Origin: Acidimicrobiales bacterium
GTDB lineage: Bacteria; Actinomycetota; Acidimicrobiia; Acidimicrobiales; SZUA-35
DNA length: 46,197 nt
Assembly: GCA_020629695.1 (NCBI GenBank)
Contig: JAHDCV010000019.1
Location: forward strand, 17,570-63,766
Direction of reading: 5' to 3'
The stretch's first letter is position 1. Each line of letters begins with the position of its first letter. Below are positions 16,036-37,256 of the stretch, piece after piece. The notes under the pieces are model-generated. The model saw only the letters and a list, made by a program, of their open reading frames with translations. It did not search any database and had not been told where the DNA came from. A program made the translations under genes and the position numbers.

Positions 16036-16086
16036 TGGAAGTGTCCGCCAGATCCGCCGTATTGGGCCACGATGGCGGAGGATTGC

Positions 16087-16123
16087 TACCGTCCATGGAC
16101 GTTCCGTCACGCCCGACGGAACG
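16087..16123 (+). promoter_or_regulatory. sdhC promoter and 5' leader hairpin
   Basis: A TACCGT -10 box at 16087-16092 predicts a transcript beginning near 16099. At 16100-16123 lies a perfect 9-bp inverted repeat (CGTTCCGTC, 6-nt loop, GACGGAACG), so the mRNA would begin with this hairpin. AAAGGAG, the ribosome binding site, follows directly. Confidence 0.5.
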
Positions 16124-16138
16124 AAAGGAGCCACCCCG

Positions 16139-16909
16139 GTGACCACCACGACCCGGCCGCGACCGCAGGTCCAGCCGCTGCGCAAGCCGCCAAGGGATCT
16201 GCCCTTCCCGCTGTCGCTCTATCAGAGCGCCGTCGGCAAGAAGTGGGCCATGGCCCTGACCGGCATCGGCCTGCTCGGTTTCGTGCTCGCCCACATGTTC
16301 GGGAATCTGAAGCTCTACATCGGCTTCGTCGAGCACGACGGCGAGATGGTCCACGATCTCGACGTGTACGCCGAGGCGCTCAAGACCCTCGGCTCGCCCA
16401 TCCTGCCCGAGGGAGTCTTCCTCTGGGTCGCCCGCCTCGGCCTGCTCGCGATGGTGGCCATCCACATCCACGCCGCCTACTCGTTGACCCGCCTCAACCA
16501 GGCGTCGACGACCAAGTACGAGAACAAGTCGGACTGGGTGGCCTCGAACTTCGCCGGCCGCACGATGCGCGTGTCCGGCGTGATCGTGCTCTTCTACATC
16601 ATCTGGCACCTGTTGGACTTCACGATCGGCTGGAGTCTCGTCAACCCGGACTTCGTGAAGGGCAACGTCTACGACAACATGGTCGCCTCGTTCACCCGGT
16701 GGAACGGGCTCGTCGCGATCTTCTACATCGTCGCCAACATCCTGCTGTCGATCCACATCTTCCACGGTGCGTGGTCGATGTTCCAGAGCCTCGGGTGGAA
16801 CAACCCCCGCTTCAACGCAGCTCGGCGCTACGTCGCCGCCGGCATCGCCGGGCTGATCCTCGTCGGCAACATCAGCTTCCCGATCGCCATCATGGCCGAT
16901 CTCGCCTGA
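16139..16909 (+). CDS. sdhC: succinate dehydrogenase cytochrome b subunit
   Basis: A 256-residue membrane anchor of succinate:quinone oxidoreductase with five predicted helices ([89 protein letters not shown]). Histidines in the membrane segments fit heme ligation. This is the b558-like single-subunit anchor, which explains the absence of sdhD. The GTG start at 16139 follows AAAGGAG by 8 nt. It is the first gene of sdhCAB. The complex oxidises succinate in the TCA cycle and passes electrons to quinone. Confidence 0.93.
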
Positions 16910-16923
16910 GGAGTCAGACAACC

Positions 16924-18843
<1,920 letters not shown>

Positions 18844-19725: not shown

Positions 19726-22700
19726 TCAGTACTCCGAGGGCAGCGCCCCGGGGCACGGTGTGGCCGGCGAGGAGCTGTTCCGGGGCTGCGGTCGCCCCGT
19801 GTAGTCGAAGTCGTTCTGAACGGTGCCGGTGTCGAGGCAGCCCCCGAACCGACGGGCGTAGCCCTCGTCGGCCTCGCGGATCTGTGCCGGAAGCGTGCCG
19901 ACGCTCGTCCCGATCGACACCGCATCGATGATCCTGGCCTCCGCGGTGTGCCACAGCACGAGGTTGGTCGTCTCCACGAGACCGGCATAGGTGAGGTCAG
20001 CGACGGCGCCTCCATCGAAGTCAGGATGGGCGAGCAGGAACCGCTGTCCCGGCTGGAGCACGGTGGCCGGGAGCGACACCACGATGGCGCCGTTGCTCCG
20101 GATCTCGAACTGCCCGAGGTCGACGGGTGAGGACGTCGGGTTGAAGAGCTCGAGGAACTCGTCGGCGAGACCGCTGTCGCCGCGAGTCTGGATCATGGAG
20201 ATGACCGGGAACCGCGGCGGCGTCGGATCACTGCCGGTGAGACATCCGACGGGCGCACTCGCCGAGTTCTGCGGGTTGATCCCCGCCTCGGTCACGTTCT
20301 TCGTGAAGTCCGACGCGTTGTCCTGCGTGTCGAGGCAGTTGCCCAGGCCGCGCGAGCCGCGACGCTCGTAGCTGACGTCGAAGGGGGTCTGCGTGTCGAG
20401 AGGCACGACGCCGAGGCCTTCGTGGAACAGCGACTCGACGGTTCCGGGAATGGCCCGCGTCCCGACCTCGTCGATCGTGGTCGCCCCCGACTCCAACCGG
20501 ATGGCGATGTCGAGGGCCGACGGAATGGCGAGTTCCTCGTCGGCGGCGACCGGACCGGTCCAGCCGGGGCTGGCGACCAGGAAGTAGCCACCGGGCTGGA
20601 TGGTGTCGGGTCCGAACGGAAGGAAGTTCGTGATACCACCACCGCCGACCCGGAGCTGCATCGGGTCGAGGTCGACCGCGGCGCCGGTCGGGTTGTGGAT
20701 CTCGATGAAGTCACCGTGGTGGTACGACCCGTGGAACGCGAACTCGCTGATCACCAGACCATCGGCCAGGGGAAGCGCGCACGGCGTGGGAGGTTCGAAC
20801 GACGGGCGCGGGCGCGGCGCCCCGGTCCAGGTGAACTCGTTCAACGTACCGACGTCGTCGAGACATCCACCGTCCCATCGGATCCATGCCTGATCGAGCT
20901 GACCTCCGAGCTCGGGGAGCCCCGAGGCGACGTTACCGAGCAGCACTTGATCGATCACCGCGTTGTCGGCGGCCCTGACCAGGTTGATCTCGTCGTTGCC
21001 GTTGCCGAAGCCGCCGTGGTTGGCATCCACCGGGCCCGGATAGGCCGAGGCGCCGAGCAGATAGCGGCCACCAGGCGGAATCACGACATCGGCGAAGACG
21101 TGATTGACGTTGCCACCCGCCTCCTGCAATTCGAGCCCACCGGTCGACAGCGGCCCGGTCGAGGGGTTGAAGATCTCGACGAACTCGTCGCCGCCGCCAT
21201 TCGGCCCGTCGGTCCGCACCATCGAGATGACGAGGTGTCCGTGCGCTCCCGGGGCGGCCGGGGTCACACACGGTTCCGCCGGCGCCGAGGTGCCCTGCGG
21301 GTTCACCTGGGTGTCGAGGAAGTTCTGGAAGAAGTCCGCACCGTTGTCGTCGGTGTCGGTGCAGTTGCCGTCACCGCGACCGGGCAGCCGCTCGAACGAC
21401 ATCTCGAAGTCGCCGAGATTCTCGAGCCGCGCAAGCCCGCTGCCCTCCATGACCAACGAAGCCGAGTCACCGTCGGCCCGCGTGCCGACCGTGTCCATCC
21501 TGGACGCACCATCGCGGAGCACGAAGCCGAGCGAGTTGGGCAGGGTCGATGGCAGCAGCTGGTCGAGACCGCCCACCCCCGGGTCAGCGATCAGGAAGTG
21601 ACCACCCGGCGGGAGGAGTGTCGTCGCAGCGGCGATCGTGATCGAGTCGGTCACGCCGCCGTTGTCATAGACGTCGAGGGTCCACCCGGCGATGTCGACC
21701 GCCGAGTCGCCGGCGTTGTAGAGCTCGACGAAGTCGGTGTCGAGCCACGCATTCCGGTTGGAGAATTCGGAGATGACGACGGCCTGCTGAGCGGGCGCGT
21801 TCACACAGGGTTCGGCGGGATCGAGTGAGCTCCGTGGCGCGGTGGCGCCGGTCCAGCGGAAGTCCGACAGCGAGTCGTCGGTGTCCTGACAGCCACCGAA
21901 CCAGCGCAGGTACCCCTCGTCCGAGTTGCTGTTGTCGACGGGGAGCTCGTCGGCGACGTTGCCGATCCGGATCTCGTCGATGATCTCGTCCGTGGCGTTC
22001 ACCACGAGTTGCACGTCGGTGTTGGCGAGGAACGAGCCGGTGTCGTCCTTCGGTCCGGGGTAGTCGACCCCAGCCACCAACCAGGATCCACCGGCTGGGA
22101 TCGTGGCGTTGGTGAGACCGACACGACCCGTTCCGCCCGGACGCTGGACGGCCAGCCCGTTGGTGGTGAGTGGGCCATCGGTCGGGTTGAACAACTCGAC
22201 GAACTCGGTCACGGATCCACCGGCGCGGAATTGCTTGATCACGAGGTGGTTCGGCGGAATGGGATCGCCAGGAGTCGTGCACGGCTCCGGTGTGCTCGCG
22301 CTCGACTCCGGGTTCACGTGCCCGGCGAGATGGTTCCGGAAGAAGTCGGCGCCGTTGTCATCGGAGTTGGTGCAGTGCCCGAAGCCGCGACCGGGCAGAC
22401 GTTCGTAGGACAACTCGTGGGCCGGTGCGTCGTTCAGCGGGTTGAGGCCCGACCCGTGACGGAGGAACGCCGCCGGCTCACCGAGCCACGCACGCTGACC
22501 GGCGACGTCGGCCATCTGACCGATGTCGTTGGTGAGTCGGAACCCGAGGATGTCGGGGGTCGGCTGGGCGAACGACTGATCGGCGGCCGGGCCGCCGACG
22601 TAGTCGGTCGACCCGATCAGATAGAACCCGCCGACCGGCACGACGGTGTTCGGGCCGGTCAGGGTCAGGGCCTCGACGAGCCCGAGGTCGTTCGAGACCT

Positions 22701-23873
22701 GGACTTCCCAGCCCTCGACGTCGATCGGCGCAGACGAAGCGTTGAAGAGTTCGAGGAACCCGCCGACGGACGCCGCTCCGCGGTTCGAGTACTCCGAGAT
22801 GACCATCGAGAGCGCGCCGGCCGGCACGGCGCCGGGGCACGGCGTCGGTGTGTCCGCCGACGTTCGCGGCACCGCAGCTCCACTCCAGGTGAAGTCGTCG
22901 ATGGACCAGTCCGTGTCGAAGCAGCCGTCGCCCCGACGGACGTAGGCGATGTCGGCCGGCTCGGGAAGTGTCGGCAGCGCATCGGGTTCGTTCAACACGG
23001 TCAGATCGTCGACGATGTTGCCGGTCGCGACCTCCTCGATGAAGAGCGTCCGGTCGCGATGAACGCCGCCGGCCTGATCCGACGGACCGGGGAAGTCCGC
23101 TCCGGCGACCAGGTACCGTTGACCGGGCACGAGCATCGTGCCGGCGGTGAACGACGCACGGAGCTCGGCAGCGCTGTCGACGACGATGAAGTCCCCGAGG
23201 TCGATGCTGCTCGACGTCGGGTTGAACAGCTCGAAGAAGTCGTCTCCACCACCACCTGCGCCGTTGTTGTCACCCGTTGGTTGCCACATGGAGATCACCA
23301 GATGGTTCGGTGGGGTCGGCGTCGGCTCGGCGGCACAGGGTTCGAGCGGGGCGGCCGTCGACTGCGGATTGACCGCTGCGCCGGTGTGGTTCCGGAGGAA
23401 GTCCCGGCCGTTGTTGCCCGTGTCCTGGCAGTTGCCGAACCCGAGGGCGTCGCGCCGCTCGAACGACTGGTCGAAGCCGGCGGTCGGCTGCAGGGCGACC
23501 ACACCGATCGTCTCGGCGGCGACCGAGCCCGGCGTCGCACCGACGGACCGGGTGCCGACCAGATCGAAGTTCTCCCCGAAGTGGACGAGCTGGAGCGCCA
23601 GGGCCGATGGCAGTGTCGTCCCGAGGTCCTGGTCCGCCGAGAGCCCGGCAGCGGCGGGCGCGACGAGGAAGTGCTGACCGGGCTGGAGCACCGTGTTCGG
23701 ACCGGTGAGGACCTCGACGTGCTGGGTCCCGACCTCGTTCAGGACACCGAGCTGCACACCCTCGAGGTCGATGGCGTCGACGCCGGCGTTGTAGAGCTCG
23801 ACGAAGTCACCGACGACCGACGCTCCGTTGTTCGAGAACTCCGAGATCTTGAGGCCGATCGGATAGGCGGTGT
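19726..23873 (-). repeat. four A+B lamin-tail super-repeats within the giant gene
   Basis: Eight modules alternate between two types. A modules: 23873-23335, 22836-22279, 21804-21268, 20778-20242. B modules: 23334-22837, 22278-21805, 21267-20779, 20241-19726. A modules begin near ISEFSN and end with a GNCxDT ... EPC cysteine pair. B modules begin near HLVISM and end with a GGCxDT ... TPC pair. Each A+B unit is about 1 kb and 330 residues. Each module contains a (D/G)xxE(L/I)xNP or ELYNAG signature of lamin-tail domains. The DNA copies have diverged. Confidence 0.85.
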
Positions 23874-26800
23874 TGCGCCGGCCGAGCGAGGAGACGTGCC
23901 CGGTCGGGTCCCCGGCATCGGCGTCGACGGTCGGCTCGGACCCAGCGCACCGCGCCGTCGCGTCACCGCTTCCCGTCGGTTCCCAGCACGACGCCGTGTC
24001 GCCATCGACGCCCGGCACCGCCAGCGCGATCGACTGACCGCCGACGCCGGTGATGAGCGACGCCTGATGGGTGTCGTCCCAGAGCATCAGGTCGGCGGGA
24101 GGCGCCGCGGTCGCTCCCCCCCAGGCCACGTAGTCGACCAGGCGATCGGCGCCGTCGATCACCCAGATCGCGTCGGCGGTGGAATTGAGTACGCTTCCCG
24201 TACCGGCGAACTGGAACTCGAGACCGCTGCCGGGCGCGGTGTGATCCGGCAGTGTCTGGCCTTCGATGTTGATGAAGACGACCGCGTACGCGCCGGGTTG
24301 GAGCACACTCGCCGAGCCGTGCACATCGGTCGCCGGCAGGACCTGGTCGAACAGATCCGGTGCCTCGTTGCGGACGTCGCGATTCGCGAGTCGCCAACCC
24401 GAGAGGTCGATCGGCGCGGCACTCGAGTTGTAGAGCTCGACGAACTCGGCCACGAAGAGGCCTTCGCGCTTGAACAGCACCTCGTTCACCACCAGGTCCC
24501 CGGCGGCGGGTGAAACCACGTAGTCGGCGATCTCGAATCGGGAGGTCGCCGTTCCGAACTGACTGGGCGAACCGTCGTCGGTGACCTTCCATGTCACGTC
24601 GAACGCACCGCCTGCCGTGGGCGAACCGGACACCGCGCCCGTGGTCGGGTCGATGGTGATTCCCGGCGGCAGGCCGGTCGCGGAGAACGTGAGCCCGTCG
24701 CCCTCCACGTCGGACGCGACGATCGCGAAGGGCGTGATCGCCTGCCCGACGCCGCCGGCACGATCGGCCGGCGGCGTGACCGCCGGCGCATCGTTGTCGG
24801 GGTCGACGACGATCGTCACGGTGGCCGCGGCGGACTCGACGTTGTCGGCGTCTCGCACGGTGTATGTGAAGCTGTCGGTGCCGTGGAAGTCCAACGGCGG
24901 CGTGTATCGAACCGTGCCGTCACCGAGCGAGACGACGGTCGCACCACTGGCCGGAAGCGCGGTGATCGCCACCGTGGCGCCGTCGATCGTGCCGTCCTCG
25001 GCGTCGCTGTCGTTCGTCGTCAGATCCGGGGTCACGAGCACCGTGTCTTCGAGCACCGAGAACCCGATGCCGGCGTCATCGACCGCCACGGGAGGGTCGT
25101 TGGCCGGTGTGACCGTGATGGTCACGGTGGCCGGCTCGGAGCGGGCACCCCCGACGTCCGCCACCGTGTAGGAGAACTGATCGGTCCCGGAGAAGTCGGC
25201 GATCGGGTTGACGTTGAACGTCCCGTCACCGAGCGGGATCAGCAACGCATTGGTCATCGGCGACACGATCTCGATCGAGCCGGCATCGAGGGCGTCACCC
25301 TCGGGGTCGCCGTCGTTGTCGAGCACGTTGCCCGTGACGAACGGGGCGTCCTCGGTCGTGGTGAACGCCGGGCCGGCGTCATCGAGCGGGATCGGAGCAT
25401 CGTTGACCGCCGTGACGTCGATGCTGAGCGTCACCGGGGCCGACTCGTTCCCGGCGGGGTCGCGGACCAGATAGTCGACGGAATCGGGCCCGTTGTATCC
25501 GGGAAGTGGCGCATAGGAGAGGTCCCCGTCCACGACGGCGACCGAGACCCCCTGTGCCGACGGACCGGCGACGATCCACTCGAGCAACGCCCCCTCGGGA
25601 TCGGCGTCGTTCGCGCCGATCGCGATCGTGGCCGGCTCGTCCTCGACGACGGAGGCGAGCTCTCCGAGAGCGATCGGCGCCTCATCGACGTCGACCACCG
25701 TCACACTCACCGTGATCGTCTGCGTGTTCGTTCCGTCGGTCACCTCGATCGACAGCGTCCTGGTCGCGTCGGCTTCGTGATCCAGGCTCCCGATCAACCA
25801 GAGGTCCCCGGACCCTCCGATGGTGAAGTCACCGGCAGGGTCGCCGCCCACGATGGTGAAGTCGAGTGCTTCGTCGTCGGCGTCGGTGTTCGGCCAACTC
25901 GCGACGATCGTGTCCGAGGGTGTTGCTTCGGACACGGTCACGCTTCGGTTCTCGAGCTCCGGCGGGTCGTCGACGGCATCGACGGTGATCGTGACGGTGG
26001 AGGTGATCTCGTATTCGCCGTCGCTGATCGTGTAGTCGAACGACACCGTCCCGCTCCGTCCGGGCTCGGGCTGGAAGACGAGCTCGCCGCCGACGATCGA
26101 CACCTCTCCCCACTCGGGTGCACCCACGGCGACGATCTCGAGATCGTCGCCGTCGAGGTCGGCGTCGTTGGCCAGGGGGTCGATGCGTGTGACCGTGTCC
26201 TCGTCGGTCCGCACGGCGTCAGCGGACGCTTGCGGAGCCCGATTCGGCAGCGTGGTCGGCGCCACCGTCGTGGTGGTGGTCGGAGGCAGCGTGGTCGTGG
26301 TCGGAGGCACCGTCGTCGTCGGCGCCACCGTCGTGGTCGGCGCCACGGTCGTGGTCGGCGCCACCGTCGTGGTCGGCGCCGTCGTCGTGGTGATCACGAC
26401 CGGGTCCTCGAACGCCAGCTCCGCCGGTGGTTCCGGGGCGACGAACCCCCCGACCGACGCCACCGCGAATGCGGCACCCGTCGACGCGGTTGCCCAGCCG
26501 GTCGAGCCGACCGAGGCGGCCACCGGCACCGGGATGTTGATCGAACCGAGGGCGTTGGCGATCCAGCCGAGCGGGCCGACCACGCGCTGGAGTCGGCCGA
26601 GCCCGATGTTCAGGAAGGCGCGGACCACCCGCGGATCGAACTGCGAGCCAGCACAGTCCGTGAGCTCCTGGCGAGCGATCTCGGGCGAGAGCGGCTTCTT
26701 GTACGACCTGGTCGAGGTCATCACGTCGTAGGCGTCGGCCACCGCGACGATGCGGCCCGGCAGCGAGATGTCGTTCCCCCCGATCTTGAGCGGATAGCCG

Positions 26801-27558
26801 TTGCCGTCCCAACGCAGATGGTGCTGGTCGGCGGCGTGCACCCAGTCGCCGAGCCAGGGCCGCAACGGCTCGAGCATCACGCCACCGGCGCCCGGGTGGC
26901 CCTGGAGGATCGCCCACTCCGAATCGTCCGGGCGCCCGGCCTTGTTCAGGATCTCCGACGGCACGGTGAGCTTGCCCACGTCGTGCAGCAGGGCCGCCCA
27001 GCGGAGTTTGTCCATCTCCTCTTCGGGCAGGCCCATCTCCTCACCGAGGAGCTCGGAGTAGGCACGGACCCGCTCGGAGTGACCGCGGGTCATGCGGTCG
27101 TGTTCGTTCAGTGCCGAGAGCAGCGTGACGAGCATCTCGCCGTTCATGACGTCGCCGCGGTCCTCGCCGCGTGCCTTCGCCGCCTGCATGTCGCGGATGA
27201 GCGCGCGCCCGTTCGACGTCCGCAGGGCCGACTTCGCTCGTGAGGGTGCGTCGTCGGGGAAGACCAACGAGAGTCGCATGAGCGCAACCAGCGGCGTGAG
27301 CCGCCGGAAGGCGCGACCGGAGGCGATGAGCAGGGTGTTCGCGACCACGAACACACCGGCGAACCAGAGGTACCGGTGCACTCCGACGCGCTCGGGGGGA
27401 TAGGCCCGACCGATCCACCAGGTGAACACCACACCGATCAACACCGGACCGATGAAGATCAGCACTCGCAGCAACATGGCGGCGCGCGGATGCGCCTGCC
27501 ATCGATTCACGCCGGCAGCGTGACGCTCTGCACCCTGGGTCGGGCCCTTGCCGCTCAC
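19726..27558 (-). CDS. giant HD-GYP / cadherin-like / lamin-tail repeat membrane protein
   Basis: A 2610-residue protein. Two membrane helices lie at about 28-50 and 63-83. An HD-GYP phosphohydrolase domain follows at about 140-320 (RGHSERV, HDVGK with His192-Asp193, DGNGYP at 251-256); the usual HHE is HHL (Leu248). A hydrophobic small-residue segment at about 325-375 could be a third helix. Then come a Thr/Pro linker (387-443), cadherin/Ig-like modules (about 444-920), a putative-Ig module (920-1020) and nine lamin-tail-like modules (1020-2610). HD-GYP domains cleave cyclic dinucleotides in the cytosol; the rest should be outside. The GTG start is at 27558; no clear promoter. I know no characterised protein of this architecture. 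It could be a cell-surface adhesin linked to a signalling domain. Confidence 0.85.
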   Translation of the reverse strand: MSGKGPTQGAERHAAGVNRWQAHPRAAMLLRVLIFIGPVLIGVVFTWWIGRAYPPERVGVHRYLWFAGVFVVANTLLIASGRAFRRLTPLVALMRLSLVFPDDAPSRAKSALRTSNGRALIRDMQAAKARGEDRGDVMNGEMLVTLLSALNEHDRMTRGHSERVRAYSELLGEEMGLPEEEMDKLRWAALLHDVGKLTVPSEILNKAGRPDDSEWAILQGHPGAGGVMLEPLRPWLGDWVHAADQHHLRWDGNGYPLKIGGNDISLPGRIVAVADAYDVMTSTRSYKKPLSPEIARQELTDCAGSQFDPRVVRAFLNIGLGRLQRVVGPLGWIANALGSINIPVPVAASVGSTGWATASTGAAFAVASVGGFVAPEPPAELAFEDPVVITTTTAPTTTVAPTTTVAPTTTVAPTTTVPPTTTTLPPTTTTTVAPTTLPNRAPQASADAVRTDEDTVTRIDPLANDADLDGDDLEIVAVGAPEWGEVSIVGGELVFQPEPGRSGTVSFDYTISDGEYEITSTVTITVDAVDDPPELENRSVTVSEATPSDTIVASWPNTDADDEALDFTIVGGDPAGDFTIGGSGDLWLIGSLDHEADATRTLSIEVTDGTNTQTITVSVTVVDVDEAPIALGELASVVEDEPATIAIGANDADPEGALLEWIVAGPSAQGVSVAVVDGDLSYAPLPGYNGPDSVDYLVRDPAGNESAPVTLSIDVTAVNDAPIPLDDAGPAFTTTEDAPFVTGNVLDNDGDPEGDALDAGSIEIVSPMTNALLIPLGDGTFNVNPIADFSGTDQFSYTVADVGGARSEPATVTITVTPANDPPVAVDDAGIGFSVLEDTVLVTPDLTTNDSDAEDGTIDGATVAITALPASGATVVSLGDGTVRYTPPLDFHGTDSFTYTVRDADNVESAAATVTIVVDPDNDAPAVTPPADRAGGVGQAITPFAIVASDVEGDGLTFSATGLPPGITIDPTTGAVSGSPTAGGAFDVTWKVTDDGSPSQFGTATSRFEIADYVVSPAAGDLVVNEVLFKREGLFVAEFVELYNSSAAPIDLSGWRLANRDVRNEAPDLFDQVLPATDVHGSASVLQPGAYAVVFINIEGQTLPDHTAPGSGLEFQFAGTGSVLNSTADAIWVIDGADRLVDYVAWGGATAAPPADLMLWDDTHQASLITGVGGQSIALAVPGVDGDTASCWEPTGSGDATARCAGSEPTVDADAGDPTGHVSSLGRRNTAYPIGLKISEFSNNGASVVGDFVELYNAGVDAIDLEGVQLGVLNEVGTQHVEVLTGPNTVLQPGQHFLVAPAAAGLSADQDLGTTLPSALALQLVHFGENFDLVGTRSVGATPGSVAAETIGVVALQPTAGFDQSFERRDALGFGNCQDTGNNGRDFLRNHTGAAVNPQSTAAPLEPCAAEPTPTPPNHLVISMWQPTGDNNGAGGGGDDFFELFNPTSSSIDLGDFIVVDSAAELRASFTAGTMLVPGQRYLVAGADFPGPSDQAGGVHRDRTLFIEEVATGNIVDDLTVLNEPDALPTLPEPADIAYVRRGDGCFDTDWSIDDFTWSGAAVPRTSADTPTPCPGAVPAGALSMVISEYSNRGAASVGGFLELFNASSAPIDVEGWEVQVSNDLGLVEALTLTGPNTVVPVGGFYLIGSTDYVGGPAADQSFAQPTPDILGFRLTNDIGQMADVAGQRAWLGEPAAFLRHGSGLNPLNDAPAHELSYERLPGRGFGHCTNSDDNGADFFRNHLAGHVNPESSASTPEPCTTPGDPIPPNHLVIKQFRAGGSVTEFVELFNPTDGPLTTNGLAVQRPGGTGRVGLTNATIPAGGSWLVAGVDYPGPKDDTGSFLANTDVQLVVNATDEIIDEIRIGNVADELPVDNSNSDEGYLRWFGGCQDTDDSLSDFRWTGATAPRSSLDPAEPCVNAPAQQAVVISEFSNRNAWLDTDFVELYNAGDSAVDIAGWTLDVYDNGGVTDSITIAAATTLLPPGGHFLIADPGVGGLDQLLPSTLPNSLGFVLRDGASRMDTVGTRADGDSASLVMEGSGLARLENLGDFEMSFERLPGRGDGNCTDTDDNGADFFQNFLDTQVNPQGTSAPAEPCVTPAAPGAHGHLVISMVRTDGPNGGGDEFVEIFNPSTGPLSTGGLELQEAGGNVNHVFADVVIPPGGRYLLGASAYPGPVDANHGGFGNGNDEINLVRAADNAVIDQVLLGNVASGLPELGGQLDQAWIRWDGGCLDDVGTLNEFTWTGAPRPRPSFEPPTPCALPLADGLVISEFAFHGSYHHGDFIEIHNPTGAAVDLDPMQLRVGGGGITNFLPFGPDTIQPGGYFLVASPGWTGPVAADEELAIPSALDIAIRLESGATTIDEVGTRAIPGTVESLFHEGLGVVPLDTQTPFDVSYERRGSRGLGNCLDTQDNASDFTKNVTEAGINPQNSASAPVGCLTGSDPTPPRFPVISMIQTRGDSGLADEFLELFNPTSSPVDLGQFEIRSNGAIVVSLPATVLQPGQRFLLAHPDFDGGAVADLTYAGLVETTNLVLWHTAEARIIDAVSIGTSVGTLPAQIREADEGYARRFGGCLDTGTVQNDFDYTGRPQPRNSSSPATPCPGALPSEY
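26300..26389 (-). repeat. 18-nt tandem repeat encoding the Thr-rich linker
   Basis: Five tandem 18-nt units (plus-strand form GTCGGCGCCACCGTCGTG and close variants) encode repeated APTTTV. Similar but less regular units continue to about 26260. It lies between the membrane part and the extracellular modules and is the one slippage-prone tract in the gene. Confidence 0.8.
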
Positions 27559-31194: not shown

Positions 31195-32088
31195 GTGGCT
31201 GTCCTGTTCCAGTTCGTGCGGGGGTTCTTCATGGGAACCGCCGACATCGTCCCGGGTGTCTCCGGAGGCACCGTCGCCCTGATCCTGGGGATCTACCACG
31301 ACCTGATCGCCAATGTCCGTGCCGGGGCCGGCGCGCTGCGACAACTCGTGACCGGCAACCTCGGCGACGGGTTCGACCGTCTCAAGGCCATCGACTGGCT
31401 GTTCCTGATCCCGCTCGGATCGGGCGTACTGGCTGCATTCGCACTGCTGCGTCATCCGATGGAGGACCTCCTCCACGACCACGCCGAAGGCACCGCTGCC
31501 GTGTTCTGCGGACTCGTCCTCGCCTCGTGCTGGTTGGTCTTCCGGACGATCACGAGCTGGACCGGAGCGACCATCGGAGCCGTCATCGGTGTCGCCGCGG
31601 CGGCGTTCGTGCTGCTCGGCTACCAGGCCGGTGCCGTGTCGGAGCCGGCCCTGCCCTTCTTCTTCGTGTCCGGCGCGATCGCGATCTGCGCCATGATCCT
31701 GCCGGGCATCTCCGGGTCGTTCATCCTGCTCATGCTCGGCATGTACGCCGCGGTCCTGGGTGGCTCGATCCCGGAGTTGGCCGTGTTCGGCGTCGGGGCG
31801 ACCATCGGTCTCGGCGCGTTCTCCTCGGTACTCAGCTGGCTGTTGGCCAAACACGAACAGCTCGTCCTCGCCTCACTGCTCGGGCTGATGATCGGTTCGT
31901 TCCGCGTGCTCTGGCCGTGGCCGAACGGGGTCGGCTTCATCTCCGACGAGGCGGACGAGGTGGTGAAGGGCACGGAACTCGCCTGGCCCGAGCCGGGGCA
32001 GTTGGTCGGTGGACTGGCCCTCGCCGGCGCCGCGCTCGTGGCGACGATGATCCTGGTCCGCGTCGCGGAGTCGAAGCCCGCCGATTGA
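31195..32088 (+). CDS. DUF368 membrane protein, polyprenyl-phosphate flippase (PopT-like)
   Basis: A 297-residue polytopic membrane protein. The opening FVRGFFMGTADIVPGVSGGT and the repeated MILPGISGSFILLMLGMY segment are the two family motifs of DUF368, which has an internal duplication. Members of this family have been shown to return undecaprenyl phosphate to the inner leaflet of the membrane, recycling the carrier used for peptidoglycan and surface polymers. The frame stays open far upstream because of GC bias, but the GTG at 31195 with its leaderless box gives the expected N-terminus. It ends convergently with the channel gene, 16 bp apart. Confidence 0.9.
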   Translation: MAVLFQFVRGFFMGTADIVPGVSGGTVALILGIYHDLIANVRAGAGALRQLVTGNLGDGFDRLKAIDWLFLIPLGSGVLAAFALLRHPMEDLLHDHAEGTAAVFCGLVLASCWLVFRTITSWTGATIGAVIGVAAAAFVLLGYQAGAVSEPALPFFFVSGAIAICAMILPGISGSFILLMLGMYAAVLGGSIPELAVFGVGATIGLGAFSSVLSWLLAKHEQLVLASLLGLMIGSFRVLWPWPNGVGFISDEADEVVKGTELAWPEPGQLVGGLALAGAALVATMILVRVAESKPAD

Positions 32089-32104: not shown

Positions 32105-33199
32105 TCAGCGATCCTCGAGCGGCGCGATGCGGGCCCAGGGGGCCGGCTGGCCGATCTCTCTGGCCCAGAACCCGCGAGGGGCGACGAGTTCGTCGATCAG
32201 GTATTCGAGGTGGGTGTCGTAGCCGCGACGGACCCGCTCGGCCCGGGCACGCGCTTCGTCGATCGGGTAGACGTCGAACCCGTGTGCGGCGAGGAGTGTG
32301 TGGATCTCGCCGAGGATGTCGTCCGTGTCGCTGTCGTTCGCCACCGCGTCGAAGTGCGCCCGGTAGGTGCTGAGGTCGGCATCGCCGACGAGATCGTGCA
32401 GGAGCACCGTGGCCTGACGGAGCGTCCAGAACGGGGTCCGGTCGTCCGCGCCCCGGATCATCTGGCAGTGCAGGGCGGCATCGGCGACGAGACCGACCGC
32501 CGTCACCCAGTTCTGTCGGTATTCCTGCGATCGGAAGTACTGGAGCATCGGGAACGACGAGTGAGATTCGAGCACGGACGACATCCACTCGTTCCAGCCG
32601 TCGAAGTGGTGGATCAGCTCCTCCACCTGTGCGTTCGGTGACCAGGCCATCACGAGATTCGTCGGCACGATGCGCCCTTCCGAACCGTCATCGAGGGTCA
32701 TCAGCTTGCGCTCACGCTCGGAGTACGCCGTGTAGAGCGCCGGCAGATAGCCGATCACCAGCGCCGTGGTCAGCACACCGGTGAACGCTTCCACCAGAGC
32801 GCCGAACCTCGGGACCGTGCCGGCGGGAACGACCTCACCGAACCCCACGGTGAAGAACACGACGCCTGAGTAGTAGATGTGATCGACCAGGCCGACGGCG
32901 CCGTCGACACCACCGAGCCCCCACCAGATCAGACCGAATCCGACGATCTGGTGACCGACCCACACGACCAACAGACCGAGCACGGTGAGCGGGGCGTAGG
33001 TCGCCAGCAGTGTGTGTCGAGCGTTGCCGTCGGGAAGAGCCAGCGCGATCGTGCGCACGATCCGCCAGGTGCTCCGATAGAGCACCTTCGACAGCCACCA
33101 TCGGCCCTGGAGCGACGAGGTCGACACGAGCGTGCCGACCATGTCGGCGAGCACCCCGACCACCAGACCGACGCCGAGCACCACGGCGATCGCACTCAT
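32105..33199 (-). CDS. potassium-channel-like membrane protein
   Basis: A 364-residue protein. A membrane helix lies at about 3-25, then helices at about 68-95, a pore loop with the selectivity-filter motif FFTVGFGEVVP (115-125) and a pore-lining helix at 133-155. This is the two-helix potassium channel (Ion_trans_2) core. The C-terminal ~200 residues are cytosolic and helical, with no RCK/TrkA nucleotide motif that I can see. The ATG at 33199 has GGAGG upstream and overlaps the stop of the preceding gene (ATGA), so the two proteins are probably made together. Confidence 0.85.
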   Translation of the reverse strand: MSAIAVVLGVGLVVGVLADMVGTLVSTSSLQGRWWLSKVLYRSTWRIVRTIALALPDGNARHTLLATYAPLTVLGLLVVWVGHQIVGFGLIWWGLGGVDGAVGLVDHIYYSGVVFFTVGFGEVVPAGTVPRFGALVEAFTGVLTTALVIGYLPALYTAYSERERKLMTLDDGSEGRIVPTNLVMAWSPNAQVEELIHHFDGWNEWMSSVLESHSSFPMLQYFRSQEYRQNWVTAVGLVADAALHCQMIRGADDRTPFWTLRQATVLLHDLVGDADLSTYRAHFDAVANDSDTDDILGEIHTLLAAHGFDVYPIDEARARAERVRRGYDTHLEYLIDELVAPRGFWAREIGQPAPWARIAPLEDR

Positions 33200-33855
33200 C
33201 GTTCCTCCACCATCGCTCGCGGGTCTCGGGGGTCCGCCGAACGGCCGACGAGCAGACCCAGTTCGTCGCGCCCGACCCAGATCGTCTCGTCCTCGGGAAT
33301 GGCGAGCGCTCCGGCCGGAACACGCTCGGCCATCGGCACGGCGCCATCCCACCAGTGCACCCGGTGGGCGGGCCAACCCTCGATCTCGAGTTGATCGACC
33401 CCGAGGAGCACGACACCCGACACCTCACCGATCTGGATGTCGCTCGACTCGGCGGACACGAGATCGTCTCCGGCGACGAAGTCGAGCTCGAACCCGAACG
33501 CGACCCGGTGCCCCAGCCCCGCACCGAGCAGCGCTTCGGGATCGTCGAGTTCGAGCGCGAACGCCTCGAGTCCGTACGACCAGTGCTCGAACGGCACCTC
33601 ACACACCTGCTCGGCCCAGAGACCGTCGTGGCGGATCTCCCAGGACCTCCCGTTGTCGACCACGCCCCGCTCGGCCAGCACGACCGGGTCGCCGACCGAC
33701 GGCCACCAGATCGCGACGTAGCTGATCGTGCCGTCGACCGCGCGGCGGGTCTGGATCATCAGCTCGTCGCCTCCCGAGGCCGAGCCGGCGATCAGGCGAT
33801 GACCCTCGTCTCCCCCATCGATGGGGTGCCGGCGCTCGCGGTCGGCGGTCTGCAC
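33196..33855 (-). CDS. hypothetical protein coupled to the channel gene
   Basis: A 219-residue soluble protein that I do not recognise. It is rich in Trp, Gly, Glu and Asp and looks like a beta-rich fold (IQTRRAVDGTISYVAIWWP, VGDPVVLAERGVVDNG, HRVHWWDG). There is no signal peptide or membrane helix. The GTG at 33855 has a TAGGTT box 6 nt upstream, which supports the start. Its stop overlaps the start of the potassium-channel gene, so it may be a cytosolic partner of that channel; this is inference from gene arrangement only. Confidence 0.75.
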   Translation of the reverse strand: MQTADRERRHPIDGGDEGHRLIAGSASGGDELMIQTRRAVDGTISYVAIWWPSVGDPVVLAERGVVDNGRSWEIRHDGLWAEQVCEVPFEHWSYGLEAFALELDDPEALLGAGLGHRVAFGFELDFVAGDDLVSAESSDIQIGEVSGVVLLGVDQLEIEGWPAHRVHWWDGAVPMAERVPAGALAIPEDETIWVGRDELGLLVGRSADPRDPRAMVEER

Positions 33856-33861
33856 GGGGCG

Positions 33862-33867
33862 AACCTA
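33862..33867 (-). promoter_or_regulatory. leaderless -10 box (TAGGTT) for the 219-aa gene
   Basis: TAGGTT on the minus strand, 6 nt before GTG 33855. Confidence 0.5.
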
Positions 33868-33920
33868 CCTGTTCGTGTACTCGTGCCGATCGGTTCGCCG
33901 GTCACGTCCCGACCCCGGCG

Positions 33921-33926
33921 TAGTCT
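33921..33926 (+). promoter_or_regulatory. leaderless -10 box (TAGTCT) for the first dynamin-like gene
   Basis: TAGTCT, 7 nt before ATG 33934. Confidence 0.5.
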
Positions 33927-33933
33927 TCGGATC

Positions 33934-35646
33934 ATGGGCGAGCAGTTGGCTGAGAACCTCGGCGACGATGTGGACGCGCTGTCGCGGGCGCTCACACGCC
34001 TACGCGATGCCTTGACGGCCACGACATTGCGGTTGCCCTCCAGTGGTGTCGACGACGCCCGGGCCGAGCGAGACGAGCTGGCGAACCAGATCGACGATCA
34101 CCTCCTGCCGCGTCTGGCGTCGATGGACGCCCCGATGCTGACCGTGATCGGTGGGTCGACCGGGGCCGGCAAGTCGACGATCGTGAACACCATCGTGGGC
34201 ACCGAGGTGACCGCAGCCGGCGTGTTGCGTCCCACGACCCGGTCCCCGGTGCTGGTCTGCCATCCGGACGACCTTCCCGCGTTCGCCGACGAGCGCATCC
34301 TCCCCGACCTCCCGAGGACGACGGCGGCCGGCGCCACGGGCCGCCAACTCACCCTCGTCGGCGAGACCTCGATGGCCCGAGGCCTCGGCCTCCTGGATGC
34401 CCCGGACATCGACTCGGTGGAGGAGGCCAATCGCGATCTGGCCACCCAGCTGCTCGGCGCCGCGGATCTGTGGCTCTTCACGACGACGGCGGCGCGCTAC
34501 GCCGATGCCGTCCCGTGGGACTTCCTGCAGCGAGCCGTCGAACGCGGGGTCACACTCGCCGTCATCATCAACCGGATTCCCGCCGGCGCCGAGGACGAGA
34601 TCGCCACCCACCTCCGCTCGATGCTCGCCGAAGGTGGGCTCGGTGACGTCGAGGTCTACCCGCTCACCGAGACCGACCTCGTCGACGGCCGCCTGCCCAC
34701 CGAGAACATCGCTCCCATCACCGATCTCCTCGCAGGACTCGCAAGCGATGTCGATCAGCGGCGAGCGGTCATCCGTCGGACACTCGACGGTGCACTCGCG
34801 ACTCTCGACGTGCGCGCCGACCGGGTGCTCCGTGGCGCCCGATCGCAGGACGAACGGGTCGCCGACCTGCTCGAGGCCGTGACCTCCGAGGTCGGTCGCG
34901 CCCGTCAACGGCTCGAGGGCGACCTCTCCGGAGGAACGCTGCTGCGCGACGAGGTGCTGGACCGATGGCAGGAGCTCATCGGCACGAACGAGATCATGCG
35001 GGCCCTCCAGTCGCGTCTGTCGTCGATCCGCGACCGGGTCACGGCGACCCTGACCGGGCGAACCCGACAGACCCAGGAGGTCGCCGGGGAGCTCACCTCG
35101 ACCGTCGAGCGTCTCATCGTCGATCACGCGGACGCCTTGGCCGACGAACTCCATCGCAGCTGGCTCGATCAACGGATCGGCGCCCACCTCGTCGCCGACG
35201 ACCCTTCCCTGCGGCGGGCGTCGGCCGATGTCCGTGACCAGGCCGGGCGGGCGGTGCGCGACTGGCAGGGCGACGTGCTGGCGCTGGTGGCGGAGCGTGG
35301 AAGTTCGAAGCGGACCACCGCTCGAGTGCTCGCCGCCGGCCTGAACACGGCCGGGATCGCCCTCATGATCCTCGTGTTCTCCCAGACGGGCGGGCTCACC
35401 GGTGGCGAGGTGGCGGTTGCGTCCGGCACGGCCGGATTGTCGCAGACGCTGCTCAACGCCCTCTTCGGCGAGCAAGCGGTCCGGGACCTCACGAACGACG
35501 CCCGGACCATGCTGACCGATCGCATCGGCGTCCTGTTCGAAGAGGATGCGAACCGCTACAGGACGCTGCTCTGGTCTCATGCCACTCCCCCCGAGGTCAC
35601 CGCTGAGTTGGCCGAGGCGGTGGACGCCGTGCGGGCGCAACGGTGA
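33934..35646 (+). CDS. dynamin/YfjP-like membrane GTPase, first of a pair
   Basis: A 570-residue GTPase. The P-loop GGSTGAGKST is at 73-82, the switch-I threonine is in RPTTRSP (99-105) and the G3 region is LLDAPDID (153-160). The G4 motif NKxD reads NRIP (213-216), so the guanine-specifying Asp is missing. A long helical region follows, then a hydrophobic stretch (AGIALMILVFSQTGGL and the small-residue segment after it) that could insert in the membrane. Bacterial dynamin-like proteins act in septation, membrane remodelling or membrane repair; Streptomyces DynA/DynB are an operon-encoded pair. The start is set by the leaderless box. It overlaps the next gene by GTGA. Confidence 0.82.
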   Translation: MGEQLAENLGDDVDALSRALTRLRDALTATTLRLPSSGVDDARAERDELANQIDDHLLPRLASMDAPMLTVIGGSTGAGKSTIVNTIVGTEVTAAGVLRPTTRSPVLVCHPDDLPAFADERILPDLPRTTAAGATGRQLTLVGETSMARGLGLLDAPDIDSVEEANRDLATQLLGAADLWLFTTTAARYADAVPWDFLQRAVERGVTLAVIINRIPAGAEDEIATHLRSMLAEGGLGDVEVYPLTETDLVDGRLPTENIAPITDLLAGLASDVDQRRAVIRRTLDGALATLDVRADRVLRGARSQDERVADLLEAVTSEVGRARQRLEGDLSGGTLLRDEVLDRWQELIGTNEIMRALQSRLSSIRDRVTATLTGRTRQTQEVAGELTSTVERLIVDHADALADELHRSWLDQRIGAHLVADDPSLRRASADVRDQAGRAVRDWQGDVLALVAERGSSKRTTARVLAAGLNTAGIALMILVFSQTGGLTGGEVAVASGTAGLSQTLLNALFGEQAVRDLTNDARTMLTDRIGVLFEEDANRYRTLLWSHATPPEVTAELAEAVDAVRAQR

Positions 35647-37256
35647 TCGGTCGACGACGTGGCCCGGACATGGGCGAGATCGTCGATGCGGTCGACGTCC
35701 TCGCACTGGACGGTGCCGACCGACTGCCGACGGCGGTGCTCGAGCCGGCGGAGGCGCTGCGGTCCCGCCTCGACGGACGCCTGGCCGTGGGCGCCGACCA
35801 GACGGTCGTCGCGCTCCTCGGACCCACGGGGAGCGGCAAGTCGTCGCTGACCAACACCCTCGCCGGCACCGAGGTCGTGACCTCCGGCGTCACCCGACCC
35901 ACGACGTCGATCACGACCGGCATCGTGTGGGACGACGACAGTGCCGACCTGCTCGATTGGCTGGAGATCTCCCAGCGCCGGCGCGTCGACGGGGGGCACG
36001 GACAACCCGGACTCGTCCTGCTCGACGTCCCCGACTTCGATTCGATCGCGGCCGATCACGTTGCGGAGATGGAACGCATCGCCGCCCGCGCCGATGTGCT
36101 GCTCTGGGTCGCCGACCCCGAGAAGTACGCCGATGCGACCCTGCACCGACGCATCGCCGACGCTCACCGCGGCGAGACCGAGATCATCGTCGTGCTGAAC
36201 AAGATCGACCGGCTCACCCCCGACGAGGCGATGGCCGCCAGCGCCGACCTCGGTCGCCTCCTTCGCGCATCCGGCCTCACCGGCGCCGAGGTCCTGGCCG
36301 CCTCGGCGACGACCGGCGCGGGCATCGACGCCGTCGGTGCACGCCTCGCTCGCTCCGTCGAATCGCGTGCGGCCGGGATGGCAAGACTGCGGGCCGAGGC
36401 GACCCGGGTCGCCGACGACATCGGCCGCCACCTCGCCGACGACGAACTCGCCGACCGGGTCGACCGTCGTCGTGGCCTGCTGTTCGACGAACTGGCGGAT
36501 GCCGCGGGGATCGGCACCATCACCGACGCGATCGTGCGAGGTCATCGCCGCGACGGTCTCGCCGTGATGGGGTGGCCGGTGACGCGCTGGGTCCAGGGCT
36601 TCCGGGCGCATCCACTCCGACGCCTCGGTCTGGTGAGCGGCAACGCCGCGGTGACCAGTGCCGACGGACCCGTGCGGCGGGCCAACCTGCCCGAGATGAG
36701 CGGGGTGCAGCGCACCCGCGTCCACGGGGCGATCCGCACCACCGTGGATCGGGTCGCCGACGGTGTGCCTCAACCCTGGCCGACACGGTTCGACGCGCTG
36801 GCCACACCGGACGACGACGACCTCGGCAACGGCCTCGATGAAGCACTCGGTCGAGCCGCGCGCACCGCCGAGCTCCATCGCCGGTCTCCCCGCTGGTGGC
36901 GACCGGTCGGACTCGTGCAGCAGGTTCTCGCCGTGATCGCGCTCCTGGGTCTGCTGTGGCTCGCCGGACTGTGGGTGCTCGCCTGGTTCCAGATCCCGGA
37001 GCCTCCACTGCCGGAGTACCGCGGCTGGCCGTATCCGACGCTGATGGCGATCGGTGGTGCGGCAGTCGGCTGGCTCCTGGGGCTGCTGATGCGCCCGATC
37101 CTCACCCGGGCCGGCCGGTTCCGCGCCCGGCGGTTCCGCAAACTCGCGAGAGACGAGATCGAAACGGTGGCGGACACCTCGATCCTCCAGCCACTCCGGC
37201 TGGAAGCCGCCGCGCACGATCGTCTGCTCGACGCCGCCCGCGTGCTCCGTTCCTGA
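35643..37256 (+). CDS. dynamin/YfjP-like membrane GTPase, second of a pair
   Basis: A 537-residue GTPase with complete motifs: P-loop GPTGSGKSS (60-68), RPTTSI for switch I, G3 LLDVPDFDS (126-134) and G4 NKID (186-189). Two membrane helices lie near the C-terminus (QVLAVIALLGLLWLAGLWVL and LMAIGGAAVGWLLGLLM), followed by a basic tail. It starts by overlapping the stop of the first GTPase (GTGA); ATG 35670 is an alternative. Pairing and coupling suggest a heteromeric complex. It ends 4 bp from the convergent AEC gene. Confidence 0.82.
   Translation: MIGRRRGPDMGEIVDAVDVLALDGADRLPTAVLEPAEALRSRLDGRLAVGADQTVVALLGPTGSGKSSLTNTLAGTEVVTSGVTRPTTSITTGIVWDDDSADLLDWLEISQRRRVDGGHGQPGLVLLDVPDFDSIAADHVAEMERIAARADVLLWVADPEKYADATLHRRIADAHRGETEIIVVLNKIDRLTPDEAMAASADLGRLLRASGLTGAEVLAASATTGAGIDAVGARLARSVESRAAGMARLRAEATRVADDIGRHLADDELADRVDRRRGLLFDELADAAGIGTITDAIVRGHRRDGLAVMGWPVTRWVQGFRAHPLRRLGLVSGNAAVTSADGPVRRANLPEMSGVQRTRVHGAIRTTVDRVADGVPQPWPTRFDALATPDDDDLGNGLDEALGRAARTAELHRRSPRWWRPVGLVQQVLAVIALLGLLWLAGLWVLAWFQIPEPPLPEYRGWPYPTLMAIGGAAVGWLLGLLMRPILTRAGRFRARRFRKLARDEIETVADTSILQPLRLEAAAHDRLLDAARVLRS

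Follow-up and report, generated by a model that had tools for sequence, protein, structure and literature searches.

An HD-GYP Domain Protein With a Lamin-Tail and Ig/Cadherin-Like Region in Acidimicrobiales Belongs to a Family With Variable Tails

Results

Gene Organization and Orthology

The reverse strand of the window (the whole 46,197-nucleotide stretch of Acidimicrobiales DNA analyzed here) carries a single open reading frame of 2,610 codons with a GTG start. Its product comprises, in this order, two membrane helices (TM1 and TM2), an HD-GYP domain, a weak third membrane segment (TM3), a Thr/Pro-rich linker, six Ig/cadherin-like modules, and nine lamin-tail domain (LTD) modules (Table 1). 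The uninterrupted frame and its series of modules, as proposed in a preliminary description made from the sequence, were confirmed by ORF calling, Pfam and an in-house HMM. The protein begins with MSGKGPT, which matches the consensus found across the family (MxxxGPT) and supports the GTG start.

Table 1. Features of the fused gene and its product (window coordinates).
Feature	Coordinates	Strand	Evidence
Whole fused gene, 2,610 aa, GTG start	19726..27558	-	ORF call; syntenic 2,602-aa orthologue
TM1, residues 24-52	27403..27489	-	AlphaFold helix; family hydropathy peak
TM2, residues 60-85	27304..27381	-	AlphaFold helix; family hydropathy peak
HD-GYP domain, residues 149-311	26626..27114	-	Pfam HD_5; PDB relatives; metal and catalytic residues
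Probable TM3, residues 354-374	26437..26499	-	Within charge-free stretch 326-375; AlphaFold low confidence
Juxtamembrane motif PEPPAELAF, residues 375-383	26410..26436	-	Family motif count vs. shuffles
Thr/Pro-rich linker, residues 390-436	26251..26391	-	DNA tandem repeat array; sequence
Six Ig/cadherin-like modules, residues 439-1005	24544..26244	-	Pfam; in-house HMM; pI about 4.05
LTD module 1, with extension	23854..24516	-	Pfam; in-house HMM
LTD module 2, long type	23305..23853	-	In-house HMM
LTD module 3, short type	22807..23304	-	In-house HMM
LTD module 4, long type	22249..22806	-	In-house HMM
LTD module 5, short type	21784..22248	-	In-house HMM
LTD module 6, long type	21238..21783	-	In-house HMM; core modelled as lamin-Ig-like beta-sandwich
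LTD module 7, short type	20761..21237	-	In-house HMM; structure model
LTD module 8, long type	20212..20760	-	In-house HMM
LTD module 9, short type, C-terminal	19729..20211	-	In-house HMM

An intact, full-length orthologue of 2,602 residues occurs in another genome from this genus. The two genes are syntenic, with a pyruvate carboxylase gene upstream and a succinate dehydrogenase iron-sulfur gene downstream at both loci. This orthologue ruled out an assembly or frameshift artefact. The preliminary description had also considered that homologues might carry the two halves as separate genes, and the homologues that we found were fused. Between the two orthologues, the HD-GYP domain was 92% identical, the TM3 segment 95%, and the tail 48-64%. 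The dN/dS ratio was 0.42 for the whole gene, 0.11 for the HD-GYP domain, and 0.39-0.56 for the tail; judged from the coding sequences, the pair is under purifying selection. Stronger conservation of TM3 than of the enzyme was rejected as a general rule, as it holds for this pair and one other group, but not for most close pairs.

Other genes of the window were also noted. The SdhA frame (16072-18843, +) is over-long, its first ~300 residues being Arg/Pro-rich and resembling read-through of another frame, and its true start probably lies near 16.9 kb. A multi-membrane protein, DUF368/PopT-like by eye, is encoded next to the pyruvate carboxylase gene (about 31300-32088, +). Two adjoining dynamin-like GTPase genes (33010-37256, +) have an ion-channel gene alongside (32105-33376).

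Ig/Cadherin-Like and Lamin-Tail Modules

From residue 439 onward, Pfam recognized Big_9, Cadherin_4, and Cadherin_5 modules (Big_9 E-value of 2.5e-59), with He_PIG at 924-999, as well as nine LTD stretches (E-value of 2.4e-90). The in-house HMM resolved the same region into six Ig/cadherin modules and nine LTD modules (residues 1015-2518), so that the cadherin/Ig-like and ninefold lamin-tail composition given in the preliminary description was borne out by both methods. After the first LTD module, long (about 183 aa) and short (about 160 aa) types alternate in four pairs. Each LTD module contains two cysteines and is acidic (pI 4.1-4.4). The top structural neighbors of the LTD cores, which were modelled with modest confidence, were lamin Ig domains. 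No LPXTG-type sorting signal was seen at the C-terminus.

In the window genome, LTD is found in this protein only, whereas in related genomes other proteins carry it too. LTD modules also occur on exported nuclease-linked proteins, such as the ExeM nuclease (PMC6085458, PMC4486849). The window protein resembles ExeM and similar prokaryotic lamin-tail proteins in having LTDs on a chain that is probably exported, but it has no nuclease domain and carries nine acidic LTDs in series. The nuclease link had raised the idea of a DNA-binding tail, which is disfavored by the low pI of the modules. The window protein likewise shares its acidic, DxD-rich repeats with bacterial Ig/cadherin adhesins (tandem-95 repeat proteins), but differs from them in that its probable anchor is an internal TM3 joined to a signaling enzyme.

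The HD-GYP Domain

Pfam HD_5 matched the enzyme domain with an E-value of 6e-32 and 111 bits, against a curated cut-off of 27.2. The nearest sequences with solved structures were V-cGAP3 (5z7c), PmGH (4mcw), and PA4781 (4r8z), active phosphodiesterases that the window protein resembles in its fold, its HD and GYP motifs, and its catalytic Asp/Lys pair. Mutations abolishing or impairing PmGH activity (PMC4159591) define a set of residues that we mapped onto the window protein. Equivalents of PmGH D183, H189, H221, D222, K225, H250, H276, H277, and D305 are all present (D154, H160, H192, D193, K196, H221, H246, H247, and D275, respectively), and all nine are retained in 69 of 77 family members. 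Compared with PmGH, seven of the eight metal ligands are kept, while E185 is replaced by M156. This position is mostly Leu or Met in the family and the tri-metal (E/D-T-G) carboxylate is absent, so a two-metal center would be expected. The GYP motif, HHLRWDGNGYP(x7)I, differs from the full HHExxDGxGYP(x7)I only at the glutamate (residue 248, 26815-26817, -), which is replaced by Leu in the window protein and its orthologue and by Cys in four sister members. In the enzyme-part phylogeny, these replacements mark the clade of six to which the window protein belongs. The same glutamate is absent from the PmGH metal ligands listed (PMC4159591).

The window genome yielded 30 matches to GGDEF, 24 to EAL, and one to PilZ. 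This context makes c-di-GMP the most likely substrate, with cGAMP as an alternative, and the domain is predicted to break down c-di-GMP.

Membrane Segments and Location of the Tail

In the AlphaFold model, TM1 and TM2 formed a confident helical hairpin and the HD-GYP domain was also of high confidence. The N-terminus and the enzyme would lie in the cytosol behind this two-helix membrane hairpin. TM3 is less clear in the window protein itself. Residues 326-375 form a stretch of 50 residues without charge, but the best 19-residue Kyte-Doolittle average is a marginal 1.40, and the pLDDT of TM3 was under 50, the alignment there having few full-length relatives. If TM3 did not cross the membrane, the whole tail would be cytosolic. 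The segment was also considered across the family described below.

The segment after the HD-GYP domain is hydrophobic and mostly free of charge in nearly all of 83 frames. The run without charge is 38 residues long at the median, and a Thr/Pro-rich linker usually follows the segment. Its hydrophobicity is far above that of the soluble domain and below that of TM1 and TM2. Its flanks differ in charge, with 3.7 K/R and 1.0 D/E on the inside and 0.45 K/R and 4.6 D/E on the outside.

Cysteine count parity offered a topology test that does not depend on hydrophobicity. Among complete tails with any cysteine, 52 of 54 had an even number and two an odd number, as opposed to 26 even and 34 odd counts for the cytosolic and membrane N-terminal part of the same proteins. 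Tails of distant relatives were even in 13 cases and odd in none, and other frames at the same loci were split (124 even, 114 odd). The naive p-value of 1.6e-13 overstates independence, the sequences being related, but the within-protein contrast is plain. The window tail has 18 cysteines, in keeping with two per LTD module. Disulfide pairing, as suggested by even counts, indicates an oxidizing, exported location.

Together with the charge asymmetry and the module types, cysteine parity leads us to infer strongly that the tail, roughly 2,200 residues long in the window protein, lies outside the cell. Hence, the membrane segment proposed at residues 325-375, marginal when taken alone, looks like a true crossing in the light of the family. 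A cytosolic tail, or a gene that is an assembly artefact, is very improbable: the weak hydrophobicity and low-confidence model of TM3 speak for it, but the even cysteine counts, the charge flip, the Thr/Pro stalk, the exported-type modules, the intact syntenic orthologue, and purifying selection largely refute it. The combination put forward in the preliminary description, a cytosolic and apparently intact HD-GYP domain with an exported adhesin-like tail in a single polypeptide, is thus supported. Its further proposal, a surface filament or adhesin that reports to or is set by cyclic-dinucleotide metabolism, is a hypothesis, so that the interpretation as a whole is supported in part.

Just outside TM3, the pattern P-x(1-3)-[LIV]-A-[FMLVY] was found in 46 of 75 members, compared with 7.6 in shuffled sequences. 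This motif (P-x-E-L-A-F like) is kept in members with unrelated tails, and it could be a site for a protease, assembly, or a partner.

A Family With a Constant Enzyme and Variable Tails

Using the first 380 residues as query, we searched 61 related genomes and took 80 stretches for frame matching. About 83 frames matched the N-terminal query, with full-length relatives in many genomes, and the common architecture was TM1-TM2-HD-GYP-TM3-linker followed by a tail of tens of residues to more than 2,200. The fusion is kept across relatives, and the window protein is not an isolated curiosity but one of a large family whose tails are interchangeable. At class level, a 111-residue N-terminal signature was detected in 31 of 296 genomes, and at phylum level in 18 of 396. 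HD-GYP proteins in general, collected by the same approach, stop soon after the domain (median of 15 residues, more than 100 in only 2 of 81), whereas this family adds TM3 and a probably exported tail. GGDEF proteins were inspected for a comparable exported tail at the C-terminus; at the loci where the motif could be placed, the sequence beyond it was short or EAL-like.

The Pfam domains of 67 tails were Big_9 (30), LTD (17), pentapeptide (6), C-type lectin (2), FG-GAP (1), NHL (1), and PKD (1), while the tails of some members consisted of low-complexity sequence only. In locus L073 (2489-4330, -) and one further member, a C-type lectin domain ends the tail. L037 (2798-6724, -) and L055 (3064-8520, +) join the same HD-GYP module to FG-GAP (integrin-like propeller) and NHL/PKD tails. 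In another order, L248 (1251-9020, +) encodes an HD-GYP fusion of 2,590 residues, near the window protein in length but with a different tail composition of nine surface-Ig modules and four LTDs.

Tail changes were counted on the enzyme-part tree, for which only tails not truncated at the end of a contig were used. At least 7 changes in LTD presence were needed, where shuffled labels would give 15.9; for tail class, scored in three states, the count was 14 against an expected 29. The changes are fewer than for shuffled labels, yet many, indicating that tails are inherited but repeatedly exchanged.

It could be argued that enzyme and adhesin merely share an anchor, the tail placing the enzyme or using its anchor with no coupling between them. 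The low-complexity tails, in which the enzyme part is retained next to no recognizable tail domain, and the very different rates of evolution of enzyme and tail would fit this view. However, the fusion lasts over many paralogues and genera, and TM3 and the juxtamembrane motif are kept through tail exchange, which speaks against an uncoupled arrangement; we consider it unlikely.

Discussion

Tails that vary over a constant enzyme are the pattern that would be expected of one-piece surface receptors, and some of these tails carry domains of the recognition type, namely C-type lectin and FG-GAP. Our preferred reading, to which we give a probability of about 0.55, is a single-polypeptide surface receptor whose exported tail is coupled to a c-di-GMP phosphodiesterase. 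TM3 would carry the chain out of the cell, the Thr/Pro linker would form a stalk, and an acidic rod of Ig/cadherin and LTD modules with disulfide bonds would project from the cell surface. We infer that engagement of a ligand or surface by the tail may rearrange the transmembrane bundle or the HD-GYP dimer and, acting from outside to inside, alter cyclic-dinucleotide hydrolysis near the membrane. Counting against a receptor are the marginal hydrophobicity and low pLDDT of TM3, the Leu in place of the HHE glutamate, and the low-complexity tails, which have no obvious ligand-binding part. The tail modules, six Ig and nine LTD, might also have a purely structural role.

Signaling might instead run from inside to outside, with the HD-GYP domain sensing cytosolic c-di-GMP and altering how its own tail is displayed, clustered, or released. 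The precedent is DvhD, a catalytically dead HD-GYP protein that provides a c-di-GMP-driven switch over separate adhesins through a protease (PMC13090378). Like the window protein, DvhD and LapD connect large adhesins with a c-di-GMP domain on the other, cytosolic side of the membrane, and the conserved motif directly outside TM3 would suit such an output. However, adhesin and protease are separate in those systems and DvhD is inactive, having lost its metal ligands (PMC13090378), whereas the window protein has a fused tail and intact active-site residues, keeps all PmGH ligands but one, and does not show the degenerate catalytic domain of LapD/DvhD-type receptors. Tail release of the LapG type was rejected, as PF06035 was not found in the window genome (96.9% complete). 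We consider the inside-out direction unlikely.

Literature searches, which covered few subscription papers, returned no paper on HD-GYP with a lamin-tail domain, and nothing on HD-GYP with a transmembrane segment and C-terminal extracellular domain in Actinobacteria. Five papers on HD-GYP, cadherin, and extracellular domains were found, and judging by title and abstract none deals with a fusion of this kind. We know of no characterized HD-GYP protein with a TM3 and an exported variable tail; as a multi-paralogue family this combination is apparently undescribed, while its separate parts are already known.

Surface sensing via c-di-GMP is usually assembled from separate adhesins, proteases, and receptors, and the functions of prokaryotic lamin-tail and cadherin-like modules are mostly guessed. 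The actinobacterial group that hosts the window protein has many GGDEF/EAL proteins and almost no signaling studies in the literature searched. As a tentative generalization, Acidimicrobiia and related actinobacteria may possess a large family of one-polypeptide surface receptors. In these, TM3 and a mucin-like stalk would join a constant, membrane-bound HD-GYP phosphodiesterase to swappable exported recognition tails (lamin-tail, cadherin, C-type lectin, FG-GAP), with contact or ligand binding leading directly to c-di-GMP removal. If this is true, prokaryotic lamin-tail and cadherin-like modules would gain a signaling role, and coupling from outside to inside, or the reverse, would become testable in one protein via tail swaps.
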